From positions 166,244,837 through 166,308,836 of the forward strand of contig NC_055988.1 of assembly GCF_018446385.1 (NCBI RefSeq): DNA of 64,000 bases. Reading direction: 5' to 3'. This stretch comes from Zingiber officinale. Taxonomy: Eukaryota; Streptophyta; Magnoliopsida; Zingiberales; Zingiberaceae. Below the pieces are notes generated by a model. The model saw nothing but the letters and a program-made list of their open reading frames with translations, did not search any database and was not told the origin of the DNA. Every line of letters begins with the position of its first letter. Position 1 is the first letter of the stretch. Positions 3,232-61,500 of the stretch are shown in pieces. The translations under genes and the position numbers were made by a program.

Positions 3232-4126
3232 TGTTGGAACCCCAAGGTGTTTTGATGTGATCAAACAAGCTAAGTTAGGTCCTGTGTTTGTTTAACCCTT
3301 GTGTCTAAGTGTGCAGGAGCTTAGGAACACAGGAAGTCGAGCGGAAGACGCGGCTAACGAGAAGGACGACACGGGGAGAGAGCCGATGGGCTCGGTGCGT
3401 CCAAGGGATGAGGTGACCGCGGAAGAGTACACCGGTGGACGAGAAGAACGTGCGCAGCATTCGAGGGATGAGAAACCGGGAAGGAAGGCTGCTCGAGGAA
3501 AAGGCCGGAACTTGGGTTTGGGTGAGCCCTATTCTGGATGGCTGAGATCACTCAAGCTAGCGGAGCCGGAGCGAACAAGACCCGGACTGAGATGAGCTGA
3601 ACAGGAGATGAAAAAGTCAACGCTGTTGACTTTGGGCTCCGGGGCACCCGGAGCCCTCCTGGGCGCCCGGAACCCTTCCGGGCGCCCAGACCTGGATTTT
3701 GACCAGGATCGCGTCAAACGCGATCTGATCGTTGAGGGATAAAATTTTATCCCCCCGGGCACCCGGAACCCATTCGGGGTGCCCCGACCAGTGCTATAAA
3801 TATAACACTGATCTGGACAGTCAGAACATCTAACTTGTAATCAGTTTTCTATGTGCTTTCAATTCTGTTTCTTTTATTTGTGCTATCAACGCTGTAAAGA
3901 GGCTACTCCACCCGAAGGAGATAAACAGATAGTGTGCTTATTTTCCTTGGATTAGCAATCCCCTGATTGCAAACCAAGTAAATCTCTTGTGTCTGCTCTT
4001 TTCCTTTAGTCTCTTAGTTTTATTATTACAAGTGTCTTTTAAATTAGTTGAATATCCGAGAAGGGTTTTTGGTTTAATTTTTGTAGGGCAATTCACCCCT
4101 CCCCTCTTACCGGCCTCCAAAGGGAA
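3232..4126 (+). repeat. 3' LTR of E0
   Basis: The LTR starts TGTTGGAACCCC directly after the polypurine tract. It holds a cluster of GGGCGCCCGG-type palindromes (about 3640-3785), a perfect 18-base palindrome centred on AAAATTTT (3736-3753) and a TATA box at about 3795. The last bases are missing where it meets the antisense element. Confidence 0.75.
3789..3810 (+). promoter_or_regulatory. LTR TATA box flanked by inverted repeat (E0)
   Basis: CTATAAATATAA sits between CAGTG (3789-3793) and CACTG (3806-3810), so the TATA box lies in the loop of a small dyad. This matches the arrangement, though not the sequence, of the A-family LTRs. Confidence 0.5.
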
Positions 4127-5578
4127 CTTGGAACCCAAAGAGAATCGTTCTAATATTTTCTCCAGATCCTTGACTTGAGTTTTCAAACTGGAATTCTCTT
4201 CCTCAAGTTTTTGGACTTGAGTCGAGTTTCCAGTCTGAATTGGTTCAGTCAAAGATTTGGAGTTAGTCACTTCTTTAAGGACAGCTACTTCCTTTAGAAG
4301 TGACTTAATTCTAAGATTTGACTTAGCTAATTTTCGTAACAAGTAATTAACTAGGTTGTTAAGTCGAGGGATACTTATAGAGGGATCGGGCCCTTCGGAA
4401 ATGGATACGGATCCGTGGCTTCTTTCTGATTCTGCTTCCGACTCGCTCTCGCTCTCGCTCTCGCTCTCGGACACATCGATCTGGTCTCGGGCCATCAAGG
4501 CAAGAAGGCTCGTCTGTTCAAGCTCGTCGTCGGTATCCTCTTCTGAAGATTCTTCAAAGGTTGTTTTTAGTACCTTCTTCTTTCTTTGCTTCTTTGCATC
4601 CTTATGATTGGGGCAGTTGGCCTTGATATTCCCCTTTTGGTTGTATCCGTAGCAGGTCACCTCAAACTTGACCTTTGAGCTCGGTTGACCCTCCTTGGAT
4701 TGGACTGCCTTCTTTAGGTCTTTCTTGTTGAAGCCATTCTTTTTCTTGTAGAGCTTCTTTACCAAGTTCACGAGTACAATTGTTAGTTCGTCGTCTTCAT
4801 CGTCTGAGTCTGGTTCTGGTTCCGATTCTGGCTCGGTTCTTCGTCGTGATCTTGGTTCGCGTGTTCTATTGGTACCTACAAGCAAAGCTACACCTTTCTC
4901 AGGTGGCTGTGTGTTAGTTTGCTCATGAAGTTCAAATTCAGAGAATAATTCGTCTAATCTAATGGAAGATAAATCCTTGGAGACTTTGTAGACATCTACC
5001 ATTGATGCCCACAATGTGCTCCTCGGAAAAGCATTAAGTGCGTATCTTATGATGTCCCTATTCTCGACCTTTTGCCCGATCGCGTAGAGGGAGTTTAGGA
5101 TGTCTTGTATACGAGCATGAAGTTGGCTGGCCGTCTCGTCTTCCTGCATTTTCAAATTATATAATTTATTGAACAAGAGATCTCTCTTGCTTACCTTAGT
5201 GTCGGAGGTGCCCTCGTGGAGTTCGATCAACTTCTCCTAAAGTTCTTTTGCGCTGGAGAATGGTCCAACTCTGTTGAGTTCCTCCTTGGTCAGTCCACAC
5301 TGGAGGGTGCAGGTCGCTCTGGCATCAGCTTCCATCTTCTTGATTAGGGTCGGTTCTCATTTTTCTCAGGGTGTTGGCTTGCCGTCTTCGTCGGATGGCA
5401 GTTGTAGTCCGGTCTTGATGATCATCCACGTGTCGAACTGTGTCTTGAGAAAGGTTTCCATTCGCCCCTTCCAATATCTGAAGTCTTCTCTGGAGAAAAG
5501 TGGGGGGCGAACGATGCTGAAACCTTCTTGTTGGCCATTAGCGATATGCAACAATAAAAAAAAAAAGAAATATCCCAA
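4127..5578 (-). pseudogene. Copia gag remnant (family B)
   Basis: Minus-strand frames show REDFRYWKGRMETFLKTQFD near the start, an IELHEGTSDTKVSKRDLLFN region, a CCHC-like zinc knuckle (CYGYNQKGNIKANCPNHKDA) and a coiled-coil tail. A hexamer repeat in the DNA (about 4440-4470) encodes a run of Ser-Glu pairs. These are hallmarks of copia gag. The copy is a fossil with about one or two breaks and loses its end at 4127. Confidence 0.7.
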
Positions 5579-5796
5579 GACTAGGTCTTGGATTAGTAGT
5601 GCGGGAAATAAAGTTAAGAATTTGCGAACTCGAGTGGTGTTGCACCAGTCTCGAGTAAAAACCGATTCAAAAAATTAATTAGAATATAACTATTAAGCTA
5701 ATTCTATTTGACTCCATAAAATTGAAAATACCATGTAAAAAAAATTACGTGATTGATGGTTGCACCAAATCAACGCGACCCCGCTCTGATACCAAT

Positions 5797-7010
5797 TGTT
5801 GGATCGAAAGCGCTAGAGGGGGGGAGGGGTGAATAGCGCTCGTGGCTATTTCGTTCGTTTCGGAATCGTAAAACAATCAAGTAAATAAACACAGCGGAAA
5901 AATAAAAGAGCACACGCTAACACAAGTTGGTTACTTGGTTCGGAGCCTGTGGCGACTCCTACTCCAAGGCCCGCGATCGTTGATCACTTCCGGTGGGTAA
6001 CAACTATAAGCTCGAAAGTTGTTATTACAAACTAAGTACAATGTAAAAGCAGTAAACAAACTTTATACCGACAATGAAATACTGAAAGCTGAAGCTCCAG
6101 GTCGTCGGGATCTCGTTGCAGCACTTTGGGATCGTCTCGTAAGCAGATGTAGCAGAAAGAAGTTATTTTGAGCTGTTGTTCAAAGTCCCCTTATAAACAG
6201 TGTTGGAGGCGCCTCCAAGCTGTCCGAGGTGCCTCCAACGAGCCGATTCAGCCGCTTAGATCAACGCAGACTCCTTCTGCGCTTATCCTCCTCAAGGCGC
6301 CTTAAAGGCCAGTCTAAGGCGCCTTGAACCCCAGCTCCAAGGCGCCTTCAAGTCCATATAGGGCGCCTCCAGCGTTTTTGGACAGCTGGCTTCGACTAGC
6401 ACCCGAGGCGCCTCCAAGCCCCATGGAGGCGCCTCAGACACTGTTCATCCGAGGTCTAAGTTGCTCCTTTGTTCCTGCAAATTATGTTAGTCCCAAACAC
6501 ACCCCTGCAAAACAAATTTAGCACAAAAATAATATGATAGATAAACTTGATAGTCATCGGACTATCCGGGGCTGACTTTGGATTTCCAACCGGAAACCCT
6601 AGGTCGACCCAACGCCTACTATTCCCTCTACGGGGAGCGCGTCCTCACCTACTCCACTCAGGAGATTTACCTGTTACCAGTGCGATCCTCCAGATTGACT
6701 GGACTTTTGCTCAGCGTTCGAAGCTTCCGGACTTTCTGCTGGACTTCTACTTCTCGGCTGGTCCAGTCTTTCACCTGGTTCGTGACACCAGGACTTTCCA
6801 CCTAGGGTTACCCCCCTAGGACTTTTTGCATGAAGCTCTTGACCCGCCAAGACTTTCCGCATAGGGTTACCAGCCCCTATGACCTAGGGTTACCACCCCC
6901 TAGGGTTTTCCACCTGCCTAACCGCAGCTAGGACTTCCTTGAAATACTCAATTAAGTATGTTAGATCACAAGACAACTTAACTTTGAATTCCTTTGCCAT
7001 TATCAAAACA
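5797..7010 (-). repeat. 5' LTR of family B
   Basis: Read on the minus strand, the 1.2-kb LTR is bounded by TGTT and AACA. It holds about eight GGCGCC-centred palindromes (6200-6450) upstream of a TATA-like TTTATAAGG. The right edge at 7010 meets gypsy sequence directly. Confidence 0.75.
6200..6450. repeat. GGCGCC palindrome array in family B LTR
   Basis: Repeated 10-12-base palindromes of the types GGAGGCGCCTCC and AAGGCGCCTT are spaced roughly 15-40 bases apart. Between them lies unrelated sequence. They sit just upstream, in LTR sense, of the TATA-like box. Confidence 0.75.
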
Positions 7011-7039
7011 ACGGTCGATCGTCGGATGCTTCCCGCACC

Positions 7040-10186: not shown

Positions 10187-10274
10187 GAGGTGCATGAGTG
10201 AATACCATGCATTTTTGTATGGCTCCCAAACGCAAGGCAAAATGTGAATAAAAAGTGAAGGCCTCTTGAAATAT

Positions 10275-11908: not shown

Positions 11909-12633
11909 CTTATTCTTCGCCTTGAGGTCTTCGATGGTCCAATTCTTCCTTGCATTGGTCAACTCGATTTTATTGTTGAATATGGTGACCTGTTTATTGA
12001 GCCGAGCTAGCATAGTGGCATAGGCGACACTCTTGTCGCGTTCAGCCTCGAGAAGTTTATTGCTCTTCTTCAGATAGACCTGCAGTTTGGCCACCTCGGC
12101 ATTCGTTTGTTCTTGATAGGCGGAGGATTGTCTGCTGAACGCCTTCATCTTCTTCACTTCCTCCTCCAAAAATACGAGCCTGTGGCACATGACTAGGCTT
12201 TCCACCCAGTACTGCAAATAACAAAGCGAATATAAGCACTGATCAAAAATCTGTTGGACCCCGTGGAAGTTTTGATATGATCAACCAAGTTGGTTAGGTC
12301 CTGCTGTGTTTGATCCCTGTGTCTGAGTGTGCAGGAGCTTAGGAGCACAGGAAGTCGAGCGGAAGACGCAGCTAGCGAGAAGGACGGCACGGGAAGGGAG
12401 CCGACGGGCTCGGTGCGTCCGAAGGACGAGAGAGCTGCGGAAGAGTACTCCGGTGGGCGTGAAGAGCGTGCGCGGCGTTCGAGGGACGTTAAGCCGGGAC
12501 GGAAGGCTGCTCGAGGAAAAGGCCGGGAATTGGGTTCGGGTGAGCCCTATTCCGGTTGGCCGCAATCACCCAAAAGATCGGAGCGTCGGAAGTCAAAGTG
12601 GAGCAAAGAAACAAGCTGGAATGTTGAGCTGCC

Positions 12634-12775
12634 TTGCTGAAGGCGCCTCCAAGGGCGCCTTCAGGCTTGATGAAGGCGCCTTCAACAGTCTGTTTTGACC
12701 GTTTGCACTGCGGATAAAGTTTTATCCGCTGACCGAGCTGGAGGCGCCTTAAACCTTGTTGGAGGCACTTTGGAC
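12634..12775 (+). repeat. GGCGCC palindrome array in A1 5' LTR
   Basis: GAAGGCGCCTTC, AAGGCGCCTCC, AAGGGCGCCTTC and GGAGGCGCCTTA types alternate at short spacing. Two neighbours form a larger dyad with arms GAAGGCGCC and GGCGCCTTC around a 6-base spacer. The matching arrays in the other A-family LTRs are at about 15,890-16,025, 19,930-20,125 and 23,165-23,340. Confidence 0.85.
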
Positions 12776-12791
12776 CCTCGGGATAGACTTT

Positions 12792-12816
12792 CCAGGAGCT
12801 ATAAAAAGGCTCCTGG
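12792..12816 (+). promoter_or_regulatory. Hairpin-flanked TATA box, A-family LTR
   Basis: TATAAAAA (12,800-12,807) lies between perfect 8-base arms CCAGGAGC (12,792-12,799) and GCTCCTGG (12,809-12,816). The same structure is at 16,044-16,068, at 20,148-20,172 and in the LTR starting at 22,782. It is the likely transcription start region of the LTR. Confidence 0.75.
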
Positions 12817-13186
12817 AGCTAGGAATTGAACAACAACTCAAGCATTCAATCTGTAGTGTTTCCTAGCAATAGTTATGAGCTTTTGAAAGTTTAAAAGGCT
12901 TCTCCGCCTTCAGCAAAGGAGAGTTTCTTTTAGTGCGCTTCTACTGCCCTGGATTAACAACCCCCTTGGTTGTAACCAGGTTAATTCTTCCGTGTCTTTC
13001 TTCTACTGTTTTATTATTTTATTAACTATTGCACTAACTGAGTTGAAAGTACGAGGAGGGTATTTTTAGTTTTTGTTTTCAGCAATTCACCCCCCTCTTG
13101 CCGGTCTCCGCTGCACCAACAAGTGGTATCAGAGCCTGATCGCCTCAGAAGGACTAACCGCCAACTGAAGCACTACGATCAAGACG

Positions 13187-14618
13187 ATGGCCGGAGCAAA
13201 CATCCATCCCCCGAAGTTTGACGGAGACTTCGCCACCTGGAAGCGCAAAATGGAAGTATTTTTTAAAACAGATTTTGATATTCTTATTACAATGAAATAT
13301 GGTTTTGCAGCGCCGAAAGACAAAGAAGAAAACACATGGAGCAAGAAGGAGCAAGCCGATTTCGTCGCCAACGGAAAGGCAGAGTTCCACCTGCTCAGTG
13401 TGTCGGATCGGAAGCTACGACTCAGCGAAAGATCTGTGGGAGAAATTCCTGGAGCTTCACGAAGGTACTTCCGAAGCGAAGCTAGCGAAGCGCGACATCG
13501 TCCGGAACCAGTTAACAAACCTCCGGATGAACCAAGGCGAGAAGGTAGCGCAACTCCAAGCGAGAATCAAGGAGCTGATAACGCAACTAACGAACCTTGG
13601 AGAAGAGGTAACCAACCGGGACTCTATCCGGTACGCGCTCAACGCCTTCCCTAGAACTCCAGAGTGGGATTCCTTAGTAGATGCGTATTACATCTCTAAG
13701 GACCTCGAGGTAAGTACTTTAGAACAATTATTTTCCACTTTTGAACTTCACGAATCTCGAGTTTCATAACCCAACGGAGTAGAGAAGACAAGTTAGAACA
13801 TTGCCCTAAAGGCAAAGATAAACAGTTCTGACTCCGAAGCCTCAGTCGACGAATCCGAAGCGACACTACTGGTAAGACGCTTCAATAAGTTTTTTAGTAC
13901 TAATAAATTTAAATCGCAGAGGCATCATCGAAAGAAGAGGACGGTTCACTGCTACAACTGCAACGAAGAGGGGCACATCAAAGATGACTGCCCAAAGCTA
14001 AAGAGAAAGGAGAAAGAAAGGGAAAAGCCAAAATACAAGAAGCCAAAACCCTCCAAATACAAGAACCTAAAGGCAACGTGGGATGATTCGTCATCCTCCG
14101 AATCGGAAGTCGAAGAATTCTCGGGACTAGCACTGATGGCCAACCATCAGAAAGAAGAAACGTCCAGCTCAGAGATGAGCATCGACGAAGGGGGAGGAAC
14201 GTCAGAAGAAAGCTGTAGTGAAGGGGGAGCGTCACCAGACCAGGTAAGTAAGGTACGCAATCTAACCCCAACTCAATCCTTCAAATTTATCAAGTCTCTT
14301 TCTAAAGAGTTAGATCAATTAGAAAAAGAGAATGCTGAACTAAAATTGAACTTAGCAAGGGCATGCCCGTTAGAAATGTATGATCATCTAAAATCAGAAA
14401 ATGAAAATTTAAAATTAGAAATTGAAAAATTGAAAAATGATGCATGCTTAAAGAAATTTCCAAAGTCAAAAATTAGAACTTATGGTAAATTAAATTGGTA
14501 TATAAGGAAGCGTCAAGGTCAACTTAGAAAAATACCAAGAAACTATGTACCCCCTAGATTTTTGAATAATCCTGTAGGTAGGAACCTCTATTGGGTTCAA
14601 AAATCTGTGCTTAATTAA
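13187..14618 (+). pseudogene. Copia gag remnant (A1)
   Basis: The gag starts after the primer site with IHPPKFDGDFATWKRKMEVF. It has the FLELHEGTSEAKLAKRD helix region, a CCHC knuckle (CYNCNEEGHIKDDCPKLKRK, near 13,950-14,010), an acidic/serine stretch, a coiled coil and the end motif NPVGRNLYW. It is close to the A2 gag and more distantly like the E0 gag. It is broken, with about three breaks. Confidence 0.8.
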
Positions 14619-15503
14619 TTTTTAAAAAAATTAAAAGTTTACAGTGAGAAAATTAAAAATTGAAATTCTTTATGGAAGCTTTGTCTAAGGAAGTAGTTGT
14701 TGCTCCAATAACCAAGAAGGCCTAGTGCCTCGCCACGACCTGGAAGCTAAAATATTGAAAGAAAATGTTTAATTAACTTTCTGAAAAAATATTAAAAAAA
14801 AAATTTAAATAATGCTTTAAAAGTTTGTAAATCTTTTTAAAATTCAAAAAAAAAATCAGATTGTGAAAATTAAAAAAATTAAATTTGACTTAGAAATTTT
14901 TTATTGACTTAGAAAATTTTTTCTAAAAATTCAAAAATTTGACTTAAAATTTTTTTATTGACTTAGAAAATTTTTTCTGAAAATTCAAAAATTTGCCTTA
15001 ATTTTTTTTTTCCTAAAAAAAAAAATTTAAATTTGACTTAGAAATTTTTTATTGACTTAGAAAATTCTTTCTAAAGATTCAAAAATTTGACTTAGAATTT
15101 TTTTTTTCATATTGACTTAGAAATTTTTTCTTAAAATTCAAAATTTTGACTTAAATTTTTTTTTTACCTTAATTTTTTTTTTTTTTTACTTAGAAATTTT
15201 TTTTCTGGTGCTCATTTTTAACTTAGAATTTTTTAAAAATTCTATAGATTTCACTTAACTTAAGTCATTTGTTTCTTAAACCCGTTTTTGCTGTGATTAA
15301 AGGGGGAGAGAAAAGTACAAGTTTAGGGGGAGTTAGAAAAATTTTAAATTTCTATTATTATTTTTATAAAAAGTGTTGCAATTTTACTAATTGCAAAAAT
15401 TATGCTTAACTTGTTAGTTTAGTAATTTTTTTTAAAATTACTTTTTATGTCTAGTTTAACCCTAACTTGAACTTGGGTTGATGCACATCAAAAAGAGGGA
15501 GAT
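14619..15503 (+). other. AT-rich untranslated interior of A1
   Basis: No gene is present. A conserved block at about 14,672-14,770 is followed by several loose copies of a GACTTAGAAATTTTTT-type phrase (14,870-15,240). The polypurine tract then leads into the 3' LTR. Confidence 0.6.
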
Positions 15504-16373
15504 TGTTGGACCCCGTGGTAGTTTTGATGTGATCAACCAAGTTGGTTAGGTCCTGCTGTGTTTGATCCCTGTGTCTGAGTGTGCAGGAGCTTAGGAGCAC
15601 AGGAAGTCGAGCGGAAGACGCAGCTAGCGAGAAGGACGGCACGGGAAGGGAGCCGACGGGCTCGGTGCGTCCGAAGGACGAGAGAGCTGCGGAAGAGTAC
15701 TCCGGTGGGCGTGAAGAGTGTGCGCGGCGTTCGAGGGACGTTAAGCCGGGACGGAAGGTTGCTCGAGGAGAAGGCCGGGAATTGGGTTCGGGTGAGCCTT
15801 ATTTCGGTTGGCTGCAATCACCCAAAAGATCGGAGCGTTGGAAGTCAAAGTGGAGCAAAGAAACAAGCTGGAATGTTGAGCTGCCAGTTTGGAGGCGCCT
15901 CCAGCCTTGCTGAAGGCGCCTCCAAGGGCGCCTTCAGGCTTGATGAAGGCGCCTTCAACAGTCTGTTTTGACCGTTTGCACTGCGGATAAAGTTTTATCC
16001 GCTGACCGAGCTGGAGGCGCCTTGGACCCTCGGGATAGACTTTCCAGGAGCTATAAAAAGGCTCCTGGAGCTAGGAATTGAACAACAACTCAAGCATTCA
16101 ATCTGTAGTGTTTCCTAGCAATAGTTCTGAGCTTTTGAAAGTGTAAAAGGCTTCTCCGCCTTCAGCAAAGGAGAGTTTCTTTTAGTGCGCTTCTACTGCC
16201 CTGGATTAACAACCCCCTTGGTTGTAACCAGGTTAATTTTTTTGTGTCTTTCTTCTACTGTTTTATTATTTTGTTAACTATTGCACTAACTGAGTTGAAA
16301 GTACGAGGGGGGTATTTTTAGTTTTTGTTTTCAGCAATTCACCCCCCTCTTGCCGGTCTCCGCTGCACCAACA
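15504..16373 (+). repeat. 3' LTR of A1
   Basis: This is the partner of the LTR at 12,252 and has the same length of 870 bases. The palindrome array differs by gain or loss of whole units: it has one extra unit near 15,890 and lacks one near 16,020. Confidence 0.9.
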
Positions 16374-16378
16374 AAATC

Positions 16379-19566: not shown

Positions 19567-20488
19567 TGTTGGACCCCGTGGTAGTTTTGATGTGATCAAC
19601 CAAGTTAGTTAGGTCCTGCTGTGTTTGATCCCTGTGTCTGAGTGTGCAGGAGCTTAGGAACACAGGAAGTCGAGCGGAAGACGCAGCTAGCGAGAAGGAC
19701 GGCACGGGAAGGGAGCCGACGGGCTCGGGCGAGAAAGAATCTAAGACTACTCGGTGGGAAAGAGTTGCGCGACGTTCGAGGGACGTTAAGCCGGGACGGA
19801 AGGCTGCTCGAGGAGAAGGCCGGGAATTTGGTTCGGGTGAGCCCTATTCCGGTTGGCCGCAATCACCCAAAAGATCGGAGCGTCGGAAGTCAAAGTGGAG
19901 CAAAGAAACAAGCTGGAATGTTGAGCTGCCAGCTTGGAGGCGCCTCCATCAGGCTTGGAGGCGCCTCCAGCTTGAAGGTGCCTCCAGCCTTGCTGAAGGT
20001 GCCTCCAAGGGTGCCTTCAGGCTTGATGAAGGCGCCTTCAACAGTCTGTTTTGACCGTTTGCACTGCGGATAAAGTTTTATCCGCTGACCGAGCTGGAGG
20101 CGCCTTAAACCTTGTTGGAGGCGCCTTGGACCCTCGGGATAGACTTTCCAGGAGCTATAAAAAGGCTCCTGGAGCTAGGAATTGAACAACAACTCAAGCA
20201 ATCAATCTGTTAGCAATTCCTAAGCAACTAGTGAGCTTCAAAAGTGTAAAAGACTTCTCCACCTTCAGAGAAGGAGATTTTTCTTACTACGCTTTTCTAC
20301 TGTCCTGGATTAACAACCTCCTTGGTTGTAACCAGGTTAAATCTCTGAGTCTTTTCCATTCGTGTTTCTTTTTCCGTTTCATTAATTTAGTTGCTGATTT
20401 AAATTCTGAGTTGAAATCCGAGGAGGGTATAGTTTGTTTTTGTTTTCAGCAATTCACCCCCCTCTTGCCGGTCTCCGTTGCACCAACA
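19567..20488 (+). repeat. 5' LTR of A2
   Basis: It starts TGTTGGACCCCG and ends CACCAACA. It has an expanded palindrome array (19,930-20,125) in which several cores read GGTGCC instead of GGCGCC. A block at about 19,731-19,770 is unlike the partner LTR. Confidence 0.88.
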
Positions 20489-20553
20489 TGTGGTATCAGA
20501 GCCTGATCGCCTCAGAAGGACTAACCGTCAACTGAAGCACTACGATCAAGACG

Positions 20554-21983
20554 ATGGCCGGAGCGAACATCCATCCCCCGAAGTTTGACGGAGACTTCGC
20601 CACTTGGAAGCGCAAAATGGAGGTATTTTTTAAAACAGATTTTGATATTCTTATTACAATGAAATATGGTTTTGCAGCGCCGAAAGACAAAGAAGAAAAC
20701 ACATGGAGCAAGAAGGAGCAAGCCGATTTCGTCGCCAACGGAAAGGCGGAGTTCCACCTGCTTAGCGTGCTGCCACCACAAGAAGTAAATCGGATCGGAA
20801 GCTATGACTCAGCGAAAGATCTCTGGGAAAAATTCCTGGAGCTACACGAAGCTAGCGCAGCGCGACATCCTCCGGAACCAGTTAACGAACCTCCGGATGA
20901 ACCAAGGCGAGAAGGTAGCGCAACTCCAAGCGAGAATCAAGGAGCTAATAACGCAACTAACGAACCTTGGAGAAGAGGTAACCAACCGGGATTCCATCCG
21001 ATACGCGCTCAATGCCTTCCCGAGAACTCCAGAGTGGGCCTCCTTAGTAGATGCGTACTACATCTCTAAGGACCTCGAGGTAAGTACGTTAGAACAATTA
21101 TTTTCAACTTTTGAACTTCACGAATCTCGAGTTTCAGAACCCAACGGAGCAAAGAAGACAAGTCAGAACATTGCCTTAAAGGCAAAGATGAATAGTTCTG
21201 ACTCCGAAGCCTCAGTCGACGAATCCGAAGCGGCACTACTGGTAAGACGCTTCAATAAGTTTTTTAGTACTAATAAATTTAAATCGCAGAGGCATCATCG
21301 AAAGAAGAGGACGGTTAGCTGCTACAACTGCAACGAAGAGGGACACATCAAAGATGGCTGTCCAAAGCTAAAGAGAAAGGAGAAAGAAAAGGCAAAGCCA
21401 AAATACAAGAAACCAGAACCCTCCAAGCACAAGAATCTGAAGGCTACTTGGTCAGATTCGTCATCCTCCGAATCGGAAGTCGAAGAATTCTTGGGACTAG
21501 CACTGATGGCCAACCATCAGAAAGAAGAAACGTCCAGCTCAGAGATGAACATCGATGAAGGGGGAGGAACATCAGAAGAAGAAAGCAGCAGTGAAGGGGG
21601 AGCGTCACCAGACCAGGTAAGTAAGGTACGCAATCTAACCCCAACTCAATCTTTCAAATTTATCAAGTCTCTTTCTAAAGAGTTAGATCAATTAGAAAAA
21701 GAGAATGCTGAACTAAAATTGAACTTAGCAAGAGCATGCCCGTTAGAAATGTATGATCATCTAAAATCAGAAAATGAAAATTTAAAATTAGAAATTGAAA
21801 AATGATGCATGCTTAAAGAAATTTCCAAAGCCAAAAATTAGAACTTATGGTAAATTAAATTGGTATATAAGGAAGCATCAAGGTCAACTTAGAAAAATAC
21901 CAAGAAACTATGTACCCCCTAGATTTTTGAATAATCCTGTAGGAAGGAACCTCTATTGGGTTCCAAAATCTGTGCTTAATTAA
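20554..21983 (+). pseudogene. Copia gag remnant (A2)
   Basis: The order of motifs is the same as in A1: FDGDFATWKRKMEVF near the start, a CCHC knuckle (CYNCNEEGHIKDGCPKLKRK, near 21,320-21,380), a coiled coil and NPVGRNLYWVPKS at the end. It is broken, with about two or three breaks. Confidence 0.8.
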
Positions 21984-22781: not shown

Positions 22782-23700
22782 TGTTGGACCCCGTGGTAGT
22801 TTTGATGTGATCAACCAAGTTAGTTAGGTCCTGCTGTGTTTGATCCCTGTGTCTGAGTGTGCAGGAGCTTAGGAACACAGGAAGTCGAGCGGAAGACGCA
22901 GCTAGCGAGAAGGACGGCACGGGAAGGGAGCCGACGGGCTCGGTGCATCCGAAGGACGAGAGAGCTGCGGAAGAGTACTCCGGTGGGCGTGAAGAGCGTG
23001 CGCGACGTTCGAGGGACGTTAAGCCGGGACGGAAGGCTGCTTGAGGAGAAGGCGGGGAATTGGGTTCGGGTGAGCCCTATTCCGGTTGGCCGCAATCACC
23101 CAAAAGATCGGAGCGTCGGAAGTCAAAGTGGAGCAAAGAAACAAGCTGGAATGTTGAGCTGCCAGCTTGGAGGCGCCTCCAGCTTGAAGGCGCCTCCAAC
23201 CTTGCTGAAGGCGCCTCCAAGGGCGCCTTCAGGCTTGATGAAGGCGCCTTCAACAGTTTGTTTTGACCGTTTCCACTGCGGATAAAGTTTTATCCGCTGA
23301 CCGAGCTGGAGGCGCCTTAAACCTTGTTGGATGCGCCTTGGACCCTTGGGATAGACTTTCCAGGAGCTATAAAAAGGCTCCTGGAGCTAGGAATTGAACA
23401 ACAACTCAAGCAATCAATCTGTTAGCAATTCCTAAGCAACTAGTGAGCTTCAAAAGTGTAAAAGGCTTCTCCGCCTTCAGAGAAGGAGATTTTTCTTACT
23501 ACGCTTTTCTACTGTCCTGGATTAACAACCTCCTTGGTTGTAACTAGGTTAAATCTCTGAGTCTTTTCCATTCGTGTTTCTTTTTCTGTTTCATTAATTT
23601 AGTTGCTGATTTAAATTCTGAGTTGAAATCCGAGGAGGGTATAGTTTGTTTTTGTTTTCAGCAATTCACCCCCCTCTTGCCAGTCTCCGCTGCACCAACA
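22782..23700 (+). repeat. 3' LTR of A2
   Basis: This is the 919-base partner of the LTR at 19,567. It has intact GGCGCC cores (23,165-23,340) and the hairpin-flanked TATA box. Confidence 0.9.
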
Positions 23701-23750
23701 AGCACCACATCCCCAGCTTTCCGTCTTTTCAACTTTCGGTCAGGATCAAT

Positions 23751-34301: not shown

Positions 34302-40926
<6,625 letters not shown>

Positions 40927-46500: not shown

Positions 46501-49500
46501 ATTAGTTAGATGTGAAGAAGAGTCAAGTAGGGTCAAGGTTGATCGGATACTTGACTGGGAAAATCCTAACTGGAGGTTAAGCAGTTGGGAAAATCCTAAT
46601 GAGTGAAGCTAGGCAGGTGAAAGTCCCGATGAGTGAAGTCAGACAAGTGAAAGTCCGGCAGTGGAAAAATCCTGGTGAATGAAGCCAGGTGAAAATCCTA
46701 GTGAGTGAAGTTAGGTGAAAGTGAGTGAAACCAAGCAGGTGAAAGTCCCAGTGAGTGAAGCCAGGCAGTGGAAAAATCCTGATGAGTGAAGCCAGGTGAA
46801 AATCCTAGTGAGTGAAACTAGGTGAAAGTCCTAGCAAATGAAGCCAGACAGGTGAAAGTCCCGGTGAGTGAAGTCGGACAGTGGGAAAATCCTGGTGAGT
46901 GAAGTCTGGTGAAAATCCTAGTGAGTGAAGCTATGTGAAAGTCCTAGTGAGTGAAGCCAGGCAGATGAAAGTCCTGGTGAGTGAAGCCGGGCAGACTGAA
47001 AGTCCTAGTGAGTGAAGCCAGGCAGACTGAAAGTCCTAATGAGTGAAGCTAGGCAAATGGAAAGACCTAGCGAATGAAGTCAGGCACGTGGAAATCCAAG
47101 TGAGTCAAGGTTGACCGGACACATGGTGCTGGGAAGTCCAAGTAGGTCAAAGGAGTGACCGGATACTTGGCACAAGAAAATTCAGATGAGTTAAAGATGA
47201 CCGGACATCCGGTGAAAGGAAGACCAAATGGGTCATGGAAGACCGAACACTTGGCACGAGACAGTAAATCCAAGTGGGTCAAGGTTGACCGATCACTTGG
47301 CATGAGGAGAAAAGTCCAAGTGGATTAAAGGATTGACCGGACACTTGGTGAAGAAATCCTAGCAGGTCAAGGTTGACCAAATGCTAGGCATGAGGAGTTT
47401 CAACAGGTCACGGTTGACCGGATGTTAGATTCGGGAACCCTTGAGCTTGAATTAAGCAAGTCATGGGTGGTTAATCGATCATCCGACTGATTGAACCAAA
47501 CCCCAATCAATTAGCCGATCGATTGGGAGAGTACTGCGACAAACAACAACCCAATTGATTGACCGATCGATTGGGAACCTGAATTGCGAGCACAGAAGCT
47601 TCCCCAATCGATCAACCGATCGATTGGGCACCGCCAATTGATCGATCGATCGATTGGTGGCTGGAATTCTCGCGCGACGCGAAAAATGCTGAATTGATCT
47701 GGCGATCGATTCAGGCCTTTTCCAGCAAAGCACAGAGGCGCTCTGAATCGATTGATCAATCGATTCAAGTCTTCTCAATCGATTGGGATATGACCGTTGC
47801 ACAGGTAGCGAGCAATGGACTGTTGCGATTGCGTGGATGTGACGTGGCAATCGATTGGGAGAAAGCCCAATCGATTAGGAGTAAGCTCAATCGATTGGGA
47901 GCCGTCAAGTATAAAGTCGTCACGAGCTTTCTTCTCCGTAGAGTTCACTCGAGCATTCTCCCGATCTTCACACGACTTCTTCGACTACTATTCGCCAGTT
48001 CTTGGAAGCTCTTGGAGACAAATGCTGATGCACTTCCAAGGTTCAAGAGGCATCTATAAGCAACAAGAGAGCAAGAAGAAGGTTTTTCATTTATATTCTT
48101 TGTATTTTTCTTCTTGCGTTGAGTTGTATGCTTGTGTGGGTGTTGTAAGAGGTTTCTCAACCTCCGATAGTACCGAGAAGGAGTTTCTTTCTTAGTGGAG
48201 AGGGCTCGTGTGTGTGGATCCTTGGATTAGTCACCTCATCTTGAGGTGGATACCAAGTAAATCCTTACTCGAGTTGAATCAATATAGCCAATCCAAATAG
48301 TTGGAACAAACAAGGCTCGATAGTAACAATAATGATGAAGACTGACCTGACCGATGATAAGATTGGCACTCGACACATCTTTCTCTTTCAGCTTCTTTAG
48401 TAACTCAAGTGCGGAACTAGTTAAGACAACAGAGGCATCAGATAGATAGCAATATATTTTGTACAGGAAGAAATACAGAGTCAGCTCAGAATACCCGGTA
48501 AGATTATATTGTATGCAGTACAGAATTACTCTACTGCATCCATCAAACCAACTGTTTGAATCCTTCAACTCCTCTAGCAGTTGAAGCAATCTATCCAATT
48601 CTCCTTCTGTTTGAAGATGTTCCTTGATTTCAAGGATAAGACATTAATCAATGATGTCTAACAATTATCCATTATGTATAACCTTAAATGATAGCTGAAC
48701 AAAACTTTGAAGAACAACCAACTTAAAGAGTACTTACAAGAAGGGATATAACAGCTTTAGGTTCTATGTTAGCTCTAGATTGCTTGATTTCAGCATAAAT
48801 ACCAAGTGCATCATGTATTTGTCCATTCGATGCGAGGGCTGACATGAGCACACCATTGATTTCATTAAGGTAATTCACTGGTATTTCTTTATTCAAAATA
48901 ATCTGCATAAGAAAACAAAATCAGTGTCATGCTAATCATTGTCTATATAAGTGATATTAGATTTACCCAGTCTATATTAACACTTTATCATAAGAGTAAA
49001 TACTAGAATCCTAATCTATCTTTTTCATCTATAACCTTTCATATTTTATCACTTCAGATTAATATTATATTATTATGAATCCAGAAGGTTCACAACAATT
49101 ATGATATATTTATGGGTATCTCTTCGAGATTATCTTCTCTAGAACTACCCTCAATAAGTTGCACTTTATCCTTAGACTTCAATAGTTAGCCCTAAAAAGT
49201 ATATCACAAATGTGGTAATCAACCCAACAAAATATAGAACATAAGACGTAAAAGGAGCAATAATTGCCTCAATCGTGACAAGGGAAGTGTATGCACAAAA
49301 AAAAGATTACCTGTTTTGCCATCTCAAAATTTCCAAATTTTGCATATGCATTCACAAGAGACATATAAATATACTTAGTAAATCCGACTTCAGAACAGCA
49401 CATTTGTTCACGGTACTGCATGAATTAATAGGTTCTTTTATAAGTGGCAAAGAATGAATTTGTGATCCATGGATCTAAAATAGAATCATGAAAATTGAAA

Positions 49501-52500: not shown

Positions 52501-55500
52501 CAGTAGAGACTATCAGCAAAAATGAAACAGAAGATTAATGTTTTACTTCTCAGCCTGGTTAACTGTTCCAATGTTTGAGTTTCTGCATAACCATAATGGG
52601 CAGAAAACCTTGGTTATCTTGTTTTAATCCACATAGAAAATGGTAGTTGAAGAGAGAAGCATACCATCTCAAGTTGGCCACTTTGCTCACAAGCGTGCAA
52701 TATTGGACTAAGAACTTCAATTGGCACACACAGACCGGATTTATACATATGATCCACTATATCAAGGGAAACGCAAACCTGCAAGTAAGCATCGAACATT
52801 TCGTTCATGCAATAAGAAACAAAAGATAATGGTGAAAAAGCAAACTATCAAGTGAAGCTAAAGAAAACCTGACAGTTTTAGCATAGTCTATAGATAATCA
52901 GTGGAATATTCTAACTGATATGTACCAATAAGAATCCAGCTTGAACTTAAAACCATAATAGGTCTTAAAACCAGTACAACCAGTATAAGCGGACCCAATC
53001 CCATGTTGAATAGGTTATTTCTCTACTAATATCCAGATCTTTATATTGTTGTTAATTGTGCTTAGAGTTTATAGTCTCCCTACCACTAATTGCTTCAATT
53101 ATAAAAAATTCAACTTGTCTAATTATAGAACCTATCTCTTGTCTGTGAACATGACCATACCACCTTTACGCTATTTTCTCTTTTTATATCTAATGGAATT
53201 ACACCTAAATACTCTTGAATAGTATTGTTATTTTATTTTCTTACAAGTCTGCACATCTATTTTGATAATCTCGTCTTGCAATTGTGTCAAACATCACATT
53301 TAGATATTGGCGCTCTATATCCCTATTAATTACATGTAAGTCTATAAAAGAAATTTGATCCATGAATCCTAATTGCTTGTACCAGGGTTATATTTTTTTT
53401 CTTTTAATTAGAGTGCACAAGGCGATCACACAGGCCTTCAAAAGATGCACTTCATTTGCACTACGCCTAATTTGCAGTAGTTTTTCACCAATTTATTTTA
53501 GTTATCCCCTCTTTTTTGTTATTATTAAATAAAAATATTAAAGTTCAGAGTGAATTTATTCTAATTTAACTCATATCAATTAACAGAATATTGCCAGCAA
53601 AGAACAAACAACGAGAAATTTATCTTGACCACTATAATTATCATTAAAATTTCAAAATTTAGTTCTTCTAAATATATTTAAGTTAATCGATCTTGATTAG
53701 TTAAGCATTTCTTAAGTAAAGACTGCAATTTCTATGCAGAACTTGATTCCCTACTAGTAAGAAAAAGATACATATATCCATGATTATTATCTCTCTCAAA
53801 AGAACTCAAATGTTCAGCTAAGAAGCATTATCAATCATGAACATATTAGAACTGAAGGTTCAAATGGGAAATGGAACCATAGAAATTCTAGTTAATATAA
53901 TTAAAAATGATAAATTTGCATATTACTAGTGATACAATCTCGCATGCAAGAATTTGATAGAGAAATAATATTCAAGTTGGGTCTAATGTAGCTTGATGAT
54001 GATAATTACAATCAACTTCATAAGTAACAAAATCCAAAATTTTATTATGTTTGATTCTCTTTCCAAATCCTTTATGCAAATTTTTGTGTCCCTTGTATCT
54101 TCTCCTTACATAACAATTTAAATCTTCTCCAAGGTTTTAGTCATAGGTATATCAAGAATAATTTCTCAATATTCTCTTTCAATTTGGTCATTCAATCCAA
54201 CATCAGGAGCATAAGTACCTAGAATATTAATGAATTTTGAGCGACCTAAAAATAAAGGTAGATCCGGTACCTTAGCGACCCCCCTAGTGTCGACCCCATG
54301 GATATGGAGAGAGGAAAATGTTAGGACCAAAAGTAGCGGGGGGGGGGTTAATAGCTCGTCGCGTTCGCTCGGTGCTTGGCGTTGCTTGTTTCTTCAAGAA
54401 TATGCAGCGGAAATACAAAGAAACAATCACACAACGCTAACACGGTTGGTTTACTTGGTATCCACCTCACAAGAGGTGACTAATCCAAGGATCCACACCA
54501 ACACACACACCCTCCACTAAATAAAACTCTCCTTTATGGTAACTACCAAGGGCGGAGAAGCCCTACAAGACTCAATACAAGAAGAGAGGGAAAGGATACA
54601 AGAAATACAAGCTTACAATGAGTATAAACTCTAACCCTAGCTTCTCTTCTTGGCTTTGATCCGCCTCTTGACTTGGAAAACTTCCAAGATCCTTCAAGAA
54701 CTGGCGATCTGAGCTTTGTGAGTGCTGTGGAGTGAGGGAAATGGAGTGAATCGGAGAAGAGATTGCGCAGCCAACGACGCCTGCAACTATATACGACGCC
54801 AGCGGTCGGATCCCGATCGATTCGAATATTCCCAATCGATCGGGAGGCTTGGATCGATCCACGATCGATCCGTGGCTCATCATCGATCGCCGGATCGATC
54901 CACGGATCGATCCGGCGCTATCGCGTGGACAGGCGTCCAATCGATCCAGCGATCGATTTGGACATCTGGATCGATCCACGAATCGATCCGAGGCTCTCAT
55001 CGCTAGGAAAGGCCGGATCGATCCATCGATCGATCCAAAGAGGTTGCCGAAAACCAAGTCCCAAGCCTCAACCAACATCCGGTCAACCTCGACTGTTGAT
55101 ACATCACGCCTAGCATCGGTCACCCTTGACTGCAGGACTTCCCACCAGTGTCCGGTCAATCCTTGACCCACTGGACTTTACTCGTCGTGCAAATATCCGG
55201 TCACTCTCGTCTACTTGGACTTCCACGGATGTCGATCATCCTCGATCCATCCGGATTTTCCTCGCGGCTTCACTCACGGGACTTTCACCGGCTTCACTCA
55301 CCAGATTTCCTTCCGCCTAGCTTCACTCACTCAGACTTTCACCGGCTTCACTCACCAGATTTCCAACCGCCTAGCTTCACTCACTAGGACTTTCACCGCT
55401 TCACTCACCGGGACTTTCACCGCCTAGCTTCACCAGGGCTTTCCAACCGCCTAGCTTCACTCACTAGGACTTTCACCAAGTCAGGTGACTCGCCTAGCTT

Positions 55501-58500
55501 CACCACTAGGGCTTTCCTTCCCCGCTTCACTCACCGTGACTTTCACCGCCTAACATCCAGGACTTCCTAGTCGGTGTCAGGTCCTCTTGACCTACTGACT
55601 CTCCTTCAATCACACCGATCAATCCCCGATCGAATCTCCCCATGAACAACTGCATTGTCCATGTGTCTACATGTATTGTCAAACATCGAAACTATGACCA
55701 AGACCCAAGCTTGGTCAACTCAGTCACCCTTGACCTAAAGGATATTGCATCAACAATCTCCCCCTTTTTGATGTTTGACAATACCTTTAAGTTAGGACCA
55801 TTCTGAGTTAAGCTAGTCCCATAGCCTTAACTCCAAGCTAGTCCCATAGCCTTAACTCCATTCATGCCAAAAGTATGAATGTTGGTTCCCTTCATTCTCC
55901 CCCTATGAGATCCCCCATAGGTAATGAAAGCCTAGCTTAAACCACACATTCTCCCCCTATTGGCACACATCAACCCATCTTTGGGCACACATCAACCCAT
56001 GCCCCAATTTTGGGTACACATCAACAAATGCCCCAATGTTGAAAACTCTCCCCCTGAAGAATTGCTCATCGTTGTTCACAACTTCACTCGTTGTGGTCAA
56101 CACGATAATGAAGGTCCCATACCCTTCATTAACCTTAACCCTACATTCTCCCCCAATGTAGGCAAATGCCCATCCTTGAGCATTATCCACTTGAAGCCAC
56201 TTGAACAATGAGGATATCCACTCCCCATTAAAGTTCAAACGCTCAACCTTGAGCATGTTCTTAACGGAAGGTTGACCACCTTCCAAGGTTCATGAAAAAT
56301 AATTTTCATGTCTTTAAAGAGTCCCTCCCCCTAAAGACATGGTGGTAACTTCTGTCATTGCACCAACAATGACTTGGAATCCCTAAACCTTTAGAAAACC
56401 CAAATTTAGAAGTTTTGAGGTTCAAATACTCAAAATTTGAAACAAACCTCAACCTAAACTTCAATGAAGCCTTCCTTAACCAATCCATCCTTGTTTTCAC
56501 ATGAAAACACCCTTTGTATGTATACAAATGTATTTTAGGGGTTTGGAATGGTTACCTAGACTCAAAGAGGTTCAAAGATGCAAATCAAGCCTTCCCACCA
56601 AAATCAGCAACTTGGATCGATTGGAGTTGGGTTCAATCGATTGAACCTTTCCGAATCGATCCACCGATCGATTCAGACTACCGATCGATCGGTCGATCGA
56701 TCCATGAACTTTCTGGATCCTCGAATCGATCCACGGATCGATTCGGCACTCAATCGATCCATGGATCGATCGGAGCTCGATAGTTGCTGAAATTCCATTT
56801 CGATCAACTTCGAAACCCTAGAAAATTCTACAAAATCCAAAATCATGAAATTTCGTGTAGACATTATTTAGGCATACTTAATCATGGAAAATAGCTTTCT
56901 TGAAAATACATCATATTTTCAAAGATCGACACAAACTTGAAAACTTACAAAACTTTAGTGTTTTTCTTCAAGTGTCTAACTATTCAATGGTGATTACTAT
57001 CAAAAGATAGCCTTCACCAAGGTTTTCCAAAACATTTTAAAAACATTTTCAAAACCAATATCCCATCATGTTCCTTGGGCATAATGCACATGACTTGTAC
57101 ATTCCCAATGATGGGAAAACACATAACTATGTGTTTTGATGAACCTAAAACTCAAAAGAATGCACTAAATCAACATCTTGAGTTTTGTTCATCTTCCTAA
57201 CATCTCACTTGTATCTAATGTACACTAAAACACGGACAAGTCACCTTATAGTCCTTGTGAGATGTGGGATTTTGATATTTCCCTAATCTAGGGATCATGC
57301 ATATCTATCTAGGCATTCTAGAGATATTAGACATCCACCTAGGATGTCACTTGTCAATAATTGTTGTTAAATGTCATTCGTCCTTAATTACAAGGAATTA
57401 AACTTAATGCATGATTATGTTATGGCATACATCAAAAGAAAATAATTTTCAAAAGAAAATATCCTATTACTACATGATGTATGAATGTCATGACATGGTA
57501 TTTTTGGAGTTTTCATAATAAAACAATGAATTCAAAAATAGACATGATGTCATGGCATATGATGGGCAAACAATCATGGCAATGTTTAGCATAAATAAAT
57601 ATACCTAGATTACCTATCTAAATATCCTTAATCACTTAGCTAAACTCAAAATATACCACTTGTTTTTAACTTAAAATGATACCACTTGTTTTAATTTAAA
57701 ACATTAAACCTAGATTGCCCTAACTGCTTCAAAGAAATGCCAAAACCTAAATTGACATTTCTTATTTCTCTTGATTTGTTTATGCCACTTAATAATTAAA
57801 CATATCCTCAAATGTTGACATATTCCATTTTTCCTCAAGAGTGATTACATAAATCAAGGCCCGGATTGCCTTAAATTTCCAAGAGAATACCAAAATCCCA
57901 ACTTGGTATTTCTCAAGGTTTTCCCAATTTGTGCCATTTTAAGATAAAATCAATTTTTCACCATTAGACACATTTTACTCTTTCAAGGAGTAATCAATAG
58001 GTCCATTTCATTTTCAAAGGTTAACTAAAACCTTGAAAATGCTCCTTGAGTGTCAATTTCCTCAAAGTTGGGTTAACTACCCTTCTAATCGGAGTTGACA
58101 CTCTCTAACCCATTTATGGGGTAGAGAAAATGCTCCTAGGAACCCAACACCTATTGGTGCTCCTTGGATGCTCTAGGTACTCACTAGGGATAACTTCCCT
58201 AGATACCTTCCTAGTGACCTTGTTGGGCTTCTTAGAAGCCTTGGTCACATTTTCTAGGTCAACTCTAGGGATAGCCTCCCTTGTGACTTTGTTAGTGACT
58301 TTCTTAGACTTCTTAGAAGTCTTAGTCACTTTGGTTGCAAAGATACTTCTAGGGATATCTTCCCTTGTATCTTTGACTTGACCTCTAGACTTAGGGTTTG
58401 TTCCATAGCTATATGGAACCCTATGATAACTAAGCACATCCTTTTTAGCTTTGGGTTTGTATCCCAAACCTCTATAGCCATTGGATGACCTTTGTGCTCC

Positions 58501-61500
58501 TAGCCCTAGGTATTGCTCATTTGCCCTTTAAGGATATTCTCCATCCTTTTTAGGGTCTTTTCTAGTTTGTCAAGTCTTGACCTCAAGACTTGATTTTCTA
58601 TCATTAAATCCTTAGGTTTTGGTCCATGAGCATTTTTGATCTTGGGCATGTGTCTATTTTCCTTAGTGTTCCCGCCCAAGTGTCTATCTACCTTCCTAAC
58701 CTTAGGTTGGGTAGTTTTGGCATGTAGGGCCACATGCTTTTCCTTAAAGCCCTCATGCTTTCTATTCTTATGGTAAATTGCATTAAAATGATAAAAGTTA
58801 GAACTATCATGCTTTTCACCATAATGTAAGGGGTAGGCTCAATAAAGATACCTTCTTCTTTACCTTGGATCCGGCGGTCAAAATCCTTGAGCCCCATGAT
58901 CTTCCCTGAGGGGAGGTCAAATGGCCTATTGGTTTGCCAGAAAAGGGCAAGCCGCCCTTTCTCTGTGTTTGGGATGATCTCCTGGGCACCCTTTTTGTGC
59001 CAGGCTTCCTTCGCGCCAATTTAGGGCACTTGCTCTTATAGTGCCCATGTTCCCTACACTCAAAGCATATAATATGATTTTATTTTTAATTGAAATATTT
59101 ATACCTTTGCTTGTAGGGGTGGCATCTTTCCTTTGGATCCGGAGATAGAAGCTTCCTCTTGATCCGATCTTGATTCTCCTCCATTTGATTTTTCTTGACT
59201 CGTGGAGGTGAAGCTTCTTCAATCTCTTCATCTCTTGACCCGGATGTAGAAGCTTCTCCTTCTTCTTGATCCGGCGTCACCAAGGACTCCCCTCGATCCT
59301 AGAGGTGGAGGCTTCATCGTCTTGAATATGAAACAAGGAGTATGCTCCTCCTTGTTCCCTCGCATTCCCTTGAGGATGAAGCTTCTTGGATTTCCTCTTC
59401 TTGAGGTTGAGCATCTCTCGACCTCGGAGTCCTCCTCTTGGTCTTGCTCCAAAAGTCACCCTCTGGATTCTTCAGCGATCTTGTCAGATGGAGGATTTCT
59501 TTGAAGCTTAGCGATTTGCTCCAAAGTTCCTTTCGTCTTGAATTCTCGATTTTAGAAGAATGGTGCTTGGCGATAAATTGACCAAAAGCTTGGTCACTTT
59601 GTCATTGCCTCGCACCTTTGGACTTGCTCAGGCTCCATTTGCTTTTCTTTAGAACTTTGCCTTTCAATTTCTTGGAGCCTTGAAGCCTTCCATTAGAGCA
59701 AACCATTGCTCTATCTCCATCATAAGAAAATTTTCGATTCTTGATTTCCAAGAATCGAAACTCGTAGAAGTGTATGGTGGAGCCACCCTTGTGTCAAATC
59801 CAAGCCCATCTTGGAATTGCATTCTACAAGTTGAGCTTTTGAATTTCTTTGAACTTGAGAAATTTGCTTCGACTTCTTTACCCTCTAGCTTTTCTTGTTA
59901 TGCTTGACCCTTCCGGCGATGATTCCGGTGAAGAGCGGCCTCGCTCTGATACCACTTGTTAGGACCAAAAGTAGCTAGAGGGGGGTGAATAGCTCGTCGC
60001 GTTCGCTCGGTGCTTGGCGTTGCTTGTTTCTTCAAGAATATGCAGCGGAAATACAAAGAAACAATCACACAACGCTAACACGGTTGGTTTACTTGGTATC
60101 CACCTCACAAGAGGTGACTAATCCAAGGATCCACACCAACACACACACCCTCCACTAAATAAAACTCTCCTTTATGGTAACTACCAAGGGCGGAGAAGCC
60201 CTACAAGACTCAATACAAGAAGAGAGGGAAAGGATACAAGAAATACAAGCTTACAAGCTTACAATGAGTATAAACCCTAACCCTAGCTTCTCTTCTTGGC
60301 TTTGATCCGCCTCTTGACTTGGAAAACTTCCAAGATCCTTCAAGAACTGGCGATCTGAGCTTTGTGAGTGCTGTGGAGGAGCTGGCGAGAAATCTGGAGT
60401 GAATCGGAGAAGAGATTGCTGCAGCCAACGCACGCCTGCAGCTCCAACGGTCGGATCCCGATCGATTCGAATATTCCCAATCGATCGGAGGCTTTGGATC
60501 GATCCACGGATCGATCCAGCGCCTATCGCACCGCTGGATCGATCCACGGATCGATCCAGCGCTAATCGGCCGCGTCCCAATCGATCCACCGATCGATTTG
60601 GACATCTGGATCGATCCACGAATCGATCCAGAGGCTCTCTGTTCGAGCAATCGATCGATCGATCGATTCGAATCGGATCGATCCATCGATCGATCCAAGA
60701 CTGGTTTTGCCCAAACCAAGTCCCAAGCCTCTCAAACCAACATCCGGTCAACTCGACCTGTTGATACATCACGCCTAGCATCTGGTCACTCCTTCGACTG
60801 CTAGGACTTCCCACCAAGTGTCCGGTCAATCCTTGACCCACTTGGACTTTACTCGTCGTGCAAGTATCCGGTCACTCTCTTGTCTCTTGGACTTCCACCG
60901 ACGTCGATCATCTCGATCCATCGGATTTTCCTGCCGGCTTCACTCACGGGACTTTCACCCGCTTCATCCCCAGGATTTCCTTCCGCCTAGCTTCACCACT
61001 AGGACTTTCACCCGGCTTCACTCACCAGATTTCCAACCGCCTAGCTTCACCACTAGGACTTTCACGCTCATCACCGGGACTTTCACCGCCTAGCTTCACT
61101 CACTGGGCTTTTCCACTGCCAGCTTCACTCACTAGGACTTTCACCGGCTTCACTCACGGGACTTTCACCGCCTAGCTTCACTCACTAGGCTTTCCTTGGC
61201 TTCACTCACCGGACTTTCACCTGGCTTAACATACCGTTAGGACTCAAGTATCCGGCCAATCTTGACCTACTGACTCTCCTTCACACTCAATCCCCAGAAT
61301 CTCCCCACATGAACAACTGCACCTGCATTGTCCATGTGTCTACATGTATTGTCAAACATCGAAACTATGACCAAGACCCAAGCTTGGTCAACTCAGTCAC
61401 CCTTGACCTAAAGGATATTGCACCAACAGAAAATGCAGGTACATAGGTCATAGGCGCATGGTGGGATAAATCTCAGATCGTCAGTTCCTGAGAATCGACC

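Follow-up and report, generated by a model that had tools for sequence, protein, structure and literature searches.

Palindromic box arrays before the promoters of Sirevirus long terminal repeats in ginger, with different words in sister families

In a stretch of 64,000 nucleotides of the Zingiber officinale genome (contig NC_055988.1, positions 166,244,837 to 166,308,836 of the forward strand; referred to here as the window), several families of long terminal repeats (LTRs) carry arrays of short palindromic boxes, mostly upstream of a TATA box. As judged from their sequence, these arrays are almost certainly the RM box regions of Sireviruses (Ty1/copia), a type of structure already described, found here in a new host and with new words. 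A preliminary description of this DNA had taken the common layout as a sign of a common function or mechanism. The shared design is real, but it comes mainly from shared ancestry: the families belong to the Sireviruses, and palindromic boxes ahead of the TATA are a recognised trait of Sirevirus LTRs (PMC2829016). Moreover, two of the families, F1 and A, are by their alignment sister families with different boxes (CCGGGCGCCCGG in F1 and GGAGGCGCCTCC in A), and such a difference between sister families of one genome, among boxes that mostly have CG at the centre, looks new.

Palindromic arrays in the window

The families in the window are F1, F2, A (copies A1 to A4) and F3 (F3a at 47.5k, F3b at 54.8k and F3c at 60.5k). 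Their arrays and the features that accompany them are the following, in window coordinates with the strand in brackets:

3661..3784 (+): degraded CCGGGCGCCCGG box array of the F1 LTR (about 3232-4130), with TATAAA at 3795
6203..6435 (-): array of the F2 LTR (about 5799-7040), with GAGGCGCCTC and AAGGCGCCTT boxes and TTTATAAG right after the last box, at about 6196-6189
12252..16373 (+): A-family element between two LTRs, with the 5-bp duplication AAATC at 12247-12251 and 16374-16378
12641..12750 (+): A1 array of (G/A)AGGCGCCT(C/T) boxes, then CTATAAAA
15890..16022 (+): A2 array of (G/A)AGGCGCCT(C/T) boxes, with TATAAA at 16052
19935..20126 (+): A3 array of (G/A)AGGCGCCT(C/T) boxes, in part decayed from GGCGCC to GGTGCC
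23168..23317 (+): A4 array of (G/A)AGGCGCCT(C/T) boxes
47518..47897 (+): F3a array of CAATCGATTG boxes and CCCAATCGATC-AACC-GATCGATTGGG hairpins, with GTATAAAG at about 47909
54816..55034 (-): F3b array of TGGATCGATCCA boxes, close pairs being frequent, with TATATA at 54793-54788
60461..60694 (-): F3c array, in the probable partner LTR of F3b
56616..56770 (-): ten more ATCGAT in the internal domain of the F3b-F3c element, preceding its polypurine tracts
5784..5798 (-): Sirevirus junction of LTR and primer binding site (PBS) in F2, CAATTGGTATCAGAG
924-938 (+), 13120-13134 (+) and 59944-59958 (-): other Sirevirus LTR/PBS junctions
3088..3229 (+): repeated AGGGGGAG polypurine tracts of F1, at 3088, 3111 and 3222, the last beginning 10 bp before the LTR
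55758..56332 (-): five AGGGGGAG tracts of the F3b-F3c element, at 55758, 55897, 55951, 56048 and 56325

Repeated palindromes are present at every place for which they had been described. Each array stretch was shuffled 1000 times with its dinucleotides preserved, and the observed total length lying in perfect palindromes of at least 6 bp was reached by no shuffle in F2 (6200-6450) and in the F3 copies at 47.5k and 60.5k, by 3 in the copy at 54.8k, and by 25, 3, 2 and 1 in A1, A2, A3 and A4, respectively. Only the F1 array (3640-3785), with 78 of 1000, is not significant by itself in this test. It contains 2 exact GGGCGCCC boxes and several decayed ones, decay being the likely reason for the small number, and it is considered real because its relatives carry more exact boxes (6 in the genome copy L076 and 3 in L046). 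The check named beforehand, whether relatives are devoid of arrays, did not speak against the proposal; the relatives keep their arrays, and F1-like copies with fewer boxes have altered boxes at the same places. Genome-wide, GGAGGCGCCTCC-N(1-25)-GGCGCC is found at least 3773+3913 times, and the reversed pattern 4+2 times.

The palindromic boxes are repeated in the U3 part of the LTR, and a TATA follows the last box by about 6-30 bp in F1 (where that box is decayed), F2, A2, A3 and the copies at 47.5k and 54.8k, and the last exact box by about 50 bp in A1 and A4. The TATA of F2, TTTATAAG, was read by eye, as it is not caught by the TATA scan pattern. The described order of array and TATA thus holds for F1, F2, A and the copies at 47.5k and 54.8k, but not for F3c, an array without a TATA where the 54.8k copy has one; nor does the described distance of about 300 bases before the TATA accommodate the 47.5k array, which spans about 400 bp. 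The 60.5k LTR (60415-60475) is without the short TATA-bearing stretch of the 54.8k LTR (54765-54840), and in the genome, as read by eye, other copies have TATTTA, GATTTAA or GATAAAG at the matching place and several relatives have a degenerate TATA. Furthermore, the ATCGAT LTRs contain a second type of tandem repeat (GTGAGTGAAGCCAGGTGAAAGTCC type) at 46600-47100, 55265-55500 and 60935-61230, farther from the promoter than the palindromes, and a long TCTCTCATCACAC-type tandem array, which is attributed to none of the LTRs described here, is located at 37348-38024.

Sirevirus identity of the families

The junction CA-A(T/G)TGG-TATCAGAGC occurs at four sites of the window, which cover F1, F2, A and F3c (the 60.0k LTR); these sites were matched to CA-A(T/G)TGG-TATCAGAG, the last letter of the F1 site being T, not C. 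At the 47.5k LTR no junction was seen, and this LTR is not delimited. Throughout the genome, Sirevirus junctions give 38876+38766 = 77,642 matches in 3.09 Gb, and the reversed control gives 1+0. Multiple AGGGGGAG polypurine tracts with the last one at -10 from the 3' LTR are found in F1, A3-A4 and F3b-F3c, a comparison that leaves out F2, the 3' end of which lies outside the view; before the 15.5k LTR there are further AGGGGGAG tracts, with a variant terminal tract. The C-rich integrase signal near the LTR end is present as CCCCCTC in the four A LTRs, F2 and F3c, while the C-rich stretch of F1 is weaker (by eye). Copia-type gag was detected in F1, F2 and A by Pfam, the five window frames scanned, none of them from F3, giving gag or zinc knuckle only; the class is read from the LTR hallmarks and gag.

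Inside the A-family element at 12252..16373, the coding matches are gag-like (Pfam). This element and a second one (about 19568-23701) both measure about 4.1 kb; their paired LTRs enclose only about 2.3 kb, in which gag-like matches were found, and both are probably non-autonomous Sirevirus derivatives.

Sister families and change of word

The four families had been held to be otherwise dissimilar, which is not the case for F1 and A. Over 335-388 bp (window 3182-3566), in a part that ends about 75 bp before the F1 array, the two share 83-84% identity, and they align again between the array and the TATA, where GACCGTT..GGATAAA(G/A)TTTTATCC is common to both, F1 itself having GATCGTT. Their boxes differ by a two-sided change, GGGCGCCC versus AGGCGCCT. 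Among 54 GGCGCC boxes, the flanking pair is A..T in 29, G..C in 17, and G..T and A..C in 4 each. F2 and A2 have only matches of box size in common, though they use the same word.

Word changes were followed on a tree from 1.2 kb of internal DNA that includes 30 of 44 rows, the 11 unassigned ones and L061, L067 and L069 (with long or odd branches) having been dropped. Parsimony needs at least eight changes on this tree, and when all 44 rows are treated by a quick method, the labelled rows also need eight. A is placed among the GGGCGCCC families (support 98/96 and 98/97), and well-supported branches keep GGGCGCCC, AGGCGCCT, CGGTCGACCG and GACCGATC from each forming one clade. Under parsimony, most of this is repeated gain, the alternative being a gain followed by losses. 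Moreover, L042 groups with one lineage by its LTR and with another by its internal DNA, which implies that exchange between elements also occurs; this exchange could explain some of the word switches.

Words in the genome and the CG centre

The census of junction-anchored LTRs comprised the first 40 of 100 listed junctions with 3 kb upstream, all located in the first 2.5 Mb of one contig and, therefore, non-random. Between 1100 and 250 bp before the junction, a palindromic hexamer is repeated beyond shuffles (p 0.02 or less) in 18/40, versus 4/40 in the adjacent gag stretch, with the cores ATCGAT (8), CGATCG (4), GTCGAC (4) and GGCGCC (2); in L044 and L067, the score comes from GTCGAC 0.8-1.0 kb upstream and not from the GGGCGCCC boxes near the promoter. 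A general score of inverted-repeat coverage was discarded as too blunt (z>=5 in 14/40 U3s, 7/40 far upstream and 1/40 gag), and a loose TATA pattern failed to catch TTTATAAG or the degenerate TATAs in the ATCGAT family.

Altogether, 29 of the 40 LTRs were assigned to six words, namely ATCGAT (8), GATCGGTC/GACCGATC (8), GGGCGCCC (8), AGTCGACT (2), CGGTCGACCG (2) and AGGCGCCT (1), a list that was chosen from the same data and is descriptive, not a test. L051 stands under GGGCGCCC by homology only, and the boxes of L055 (GGGCGCCC) and L056 (CGGTCGACCG) are decayed; L041, with one exact and four near AGGCGCCT, was left unassigned, though it is no weaker than these two. The boxes of L061 lie 731-1039 bp before the junction, with no TATA found after them, and may belong to a neighbouring element. 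L071 has eight GACCGATC-type boxes at 1.05-1.22 kb and AGTCGACT boxes at 0.43-0.56 kb before the junction within one 1.3-kb stretch; either this LTR is chimeric or one array belongs to a neighbour.

Five of the 11 unassigned LTRs (L049, L063, L064, L077 and L078) hold 2-5 GCCGGC (GGCCGGCC) boxes. In L063, L064 and L077, TTATAAAA is preceded by two GGCCGGCC boxes at about 660-790 bp and a third at about 117 bp, and followed by a fourth at about 78 bp; in L049 and L078, no TTATAAAA stands at the corresponding place. Between 800 and 1700 bp before the junction, some boxes of this family stand beside AAGCTAGCTT repeats, and AT-rich inverted repeats are present.

A CG centre is common, not universal. 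All the window arrays have it, as had been described, but it does not extend to every word of the genome, since it is found in 21 of the 29 assigned LTRs and the other 8 are looped inverted repeats GATCGGTC-n-GACCGATC, such as TGATCGGTCC-gg-GGACCGATCA.

Relation to known RM boxes

Bousios et al. 2010 describe palindromic 'RM boxes' from 13 Sireviruses. These boxes lie upstream of the TATA, border CpG islands and have a CGG-CCG core in 12 of 13 elements, Tnd-1 being the exception; envelope-bearing Sireviruses have extra copies in the linker domain, and a common factor binding the boxes could not be named there (PMC2829016). The ginger arrays resemble them in their repeated palindromic boxes, their position in the upper LTR upstream of the TATA, their high copy number, the junction and the polypurine tracts, and the ten internal ATCGAT at 56616-56770 are like the linker copies. 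The Vitis RM word CGGTCGACCG is present unchanged in L074, and ten of the twelve letters of the Tnd-1 word ACAATCGATTGT match in the 47.5k LTR (both words from Table 3, PMC2829016). However, the CGG-CCG core is present in the CGGGCGCCCG, CGGTCGACCG and CGGTC-n-GACCG words and absent from AGGCGCCT, AGTCGACT and ATCGAT, and the ginger genome differs from the published examples in combining at least six words and in the change of word between sister families.

The cis-region of maize Opie/Ji (Bousios et al. 2016) is likewise a palindrome-rich, hairpin-forming LTR region, and it is reported as a hotspot of small interfering RNA (siRNA) (PMC5311732, PMC10760457). The maize word CACCGGACNNNGTCCGGTG has no exact match in the ginger genome, and the pair search gives 0 v 0. 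LTR enhancers of the Tnt1 type also consist of repeated, partly symmetric boxes before a copia promoter, but Tnt1 belongs to a different copia lineage. Among the open-licence papers listed by the literature searches, none on GGCGCC-type boxes or on word switching was found.

Possible functions of the boxes

The preliminary description had offered factor sites, methylation control and RNA hairpins as candidates. All of them have been raised in the literature, as regulatory sites, CpG islands and hairpins or siRNA, and the sequence evidence leans mildly towards DNA sites. With a slight preponderance of probability, the boxes would be repeated symmetric DNA sites for host dimeric regulators, and such sites are preferred with modest confidence over selected RNA hairpins. 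Each family repeats a short CpG-containing word of two-fold symmetry, as single boxes or in close pairs, immediately before the core promoter. In this mechanism, the word would be a putative site for a dimeric host protein that recognises the two half-sites together; many copies might provide a strong or stress-tuned enhancer, and a change of word between sister families would be a change of host regulator. The same symmetry would let the transcripts fold, probably making the arrays a hotspot of siRNA and methylation, in line with reports on maize Sireviruses, and hairpin-derived siRNA would likely be a by-product or a cost.

The occurrence of the same word in lineages whose LTRs barely align, together with the eight or more word changes, suggests a limited, reused vocabulary, which fits protein sites. 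The recurrence of words in distant plants (CGGTCGACCG in Vitis and ACAATCGATTGT in Tnd-1) also counts in favour of dimer sites. So does the great excess of CG-centred pairs over the control, the reversed pattern, which is a GC-centred palindrome of equal composition, for AGTCGACT (at least 38769 versus 620), GGGCGCCC (at least 30657 versus 234) and CGGTCGACCG (at least 11582 versus 53). These words and CCAATCGATTGG..AATCGATT (at least 4562+4672 versus 0) were picked after seeing the arrays, and family copy number inflates such counts, the events not being independent. GGACGTCC, a CG-centred low control, is rare (30 versus 8 reversed). The pair of GGCCGGCC (at least 42782 versus 3167) was rejected as a negative control, since it proved to be abundant and CG-centred itself. 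Finally, among the mismatches of 10-bp stems the two wobble types are almost equally frequent (GT 55, AC 44, other 136), in a weak test, since stems with up to 2 mismatches average 7.2 per 1050 bp in the 29 assigned U3s versus 5.0 in 40 gag stretches.

Several observations weigh against dimer sites, besides the choice and inflation of the pair counts. Six of the 40 census junctions, L041 among them, show no recognisable array. In the ATCGAT arrays, the outer arms covary, with 93 paired v 72 expected at offset 5 and 96 v 70 at offset 6 (0/500 reshuffles each), and a dimer of fixed specificity needs no such covariation; the innermost flank (offset 4) behaves in the opposite way, with 100 paired v 107 expected, and the GGCGCC and GTCGAC boxes show no excess of arm covariation. 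At the three positions flanking the boxes, GT exceeds AC on the sense strand (109 vs 61), which would favour RNA. The arrays also fold more strongly than shuffles, with a median z of -6.5 in 31 arrays of 49 stretches examined, although many of the 31 are close relatives and the wrong repeat was taken for L044, L061 and L067. In 24/31 (8 beyond z -1.64), boxes in their real order and orientation fold better than permuted or flipped ones do on average, and in 7 they fold worse, which favours paired units.

The strong folding and the GT excess are what would be expected if the boxes were maintained for the hairpins that they form in the 3' U3 of the RNA, serving stability, packaging or dimerisation, or if these hairpins fed siRNA. 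Stems of about 10 bp with loops of 2-8 nt, as in TGATCGGTCC-gg-GGACCGATCA and GATCGATTGG-gagtatt-CCAATCGATC, agree with this, as do the better folding of the sense than of the antisense strand in 22/31 arrays and the small-RNA hotspots reported at maize Sirevirus palindromes (PMC5311732, PMC10760457). Nevertheless, L046, L047 and L076, the three CCGGGCGCCCGG arrays for which the right repeat was taken, fold better as antisense, and most of the GT excess is due to a single position of the ATCGAT boxes (47 v 5, the remainder being 62 v 56), where we attribute T..G to the GT between paired boxes. The 10-bp stems, in the weak test above, are nearly balanced, and siRNA targeting harms the element, so that it explains a cost and not the upkeep of the boxes. 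A sense-strand RNA hairpin as a selected feature is, thus, weakened, and this explanation seems rather unlikely.

A CpG methylation switch, in which a factor would bind the symmetric CpG boxes only when unmethylated and produce steep silencing and reactivation, is less probable still. CpG is part of all six assigned words and occupies the dyad in five. The CpG observed/expected ratio is slightly raised in F1 and reaches 1.33, 1.78 and 1.86 in the three F3 arrays v 0.45, 0.73 and 0.68 in the rest of the LTR; however, the F2 and A arrays are not enriched (0.52-0.77 v 0.79-0.86), and only for the F3 arrays does the enrichment speak for a role of methylation. CpG transitions account for 10/21 single changes in AGGCGCCT, 6/12 in GGGCGCCC and 13/51 in GATCGATC boxes, but this deamination points to methylation of old copies and not to regulation.

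The paired units, the ATCGAT arm covariation and the word changes between sisters could also be produced neutrally, if template switching during reverse transcription copied arm to arm and multiplied the boxes, with symmetry but no function. This is the most improbable of the explanations considered, as it would leave unexplained the constant place before the TATA, the reuse of few words, the CpG content and the sharing with grape and tobacco elements.

Implications for Sirevirus promoters

Taking dimer sites as the preferred function, a broader proposal, less likely than not, is that Sirevirus promoters of this genome share a limited stock of words with two-fold symmetry, most of them CG-centred, which is used repeatedly. 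The whole array might be swapped from one word to another with symmetry and position kept, so that related families could come under different host dimeric regulators or evade siRNA directed against the old word. With F1 and A, a sister pair is at hand in which the host factor could be sought by clean comparison, and a change of word driven by regulation could be distinguished from one driven by siRNA.

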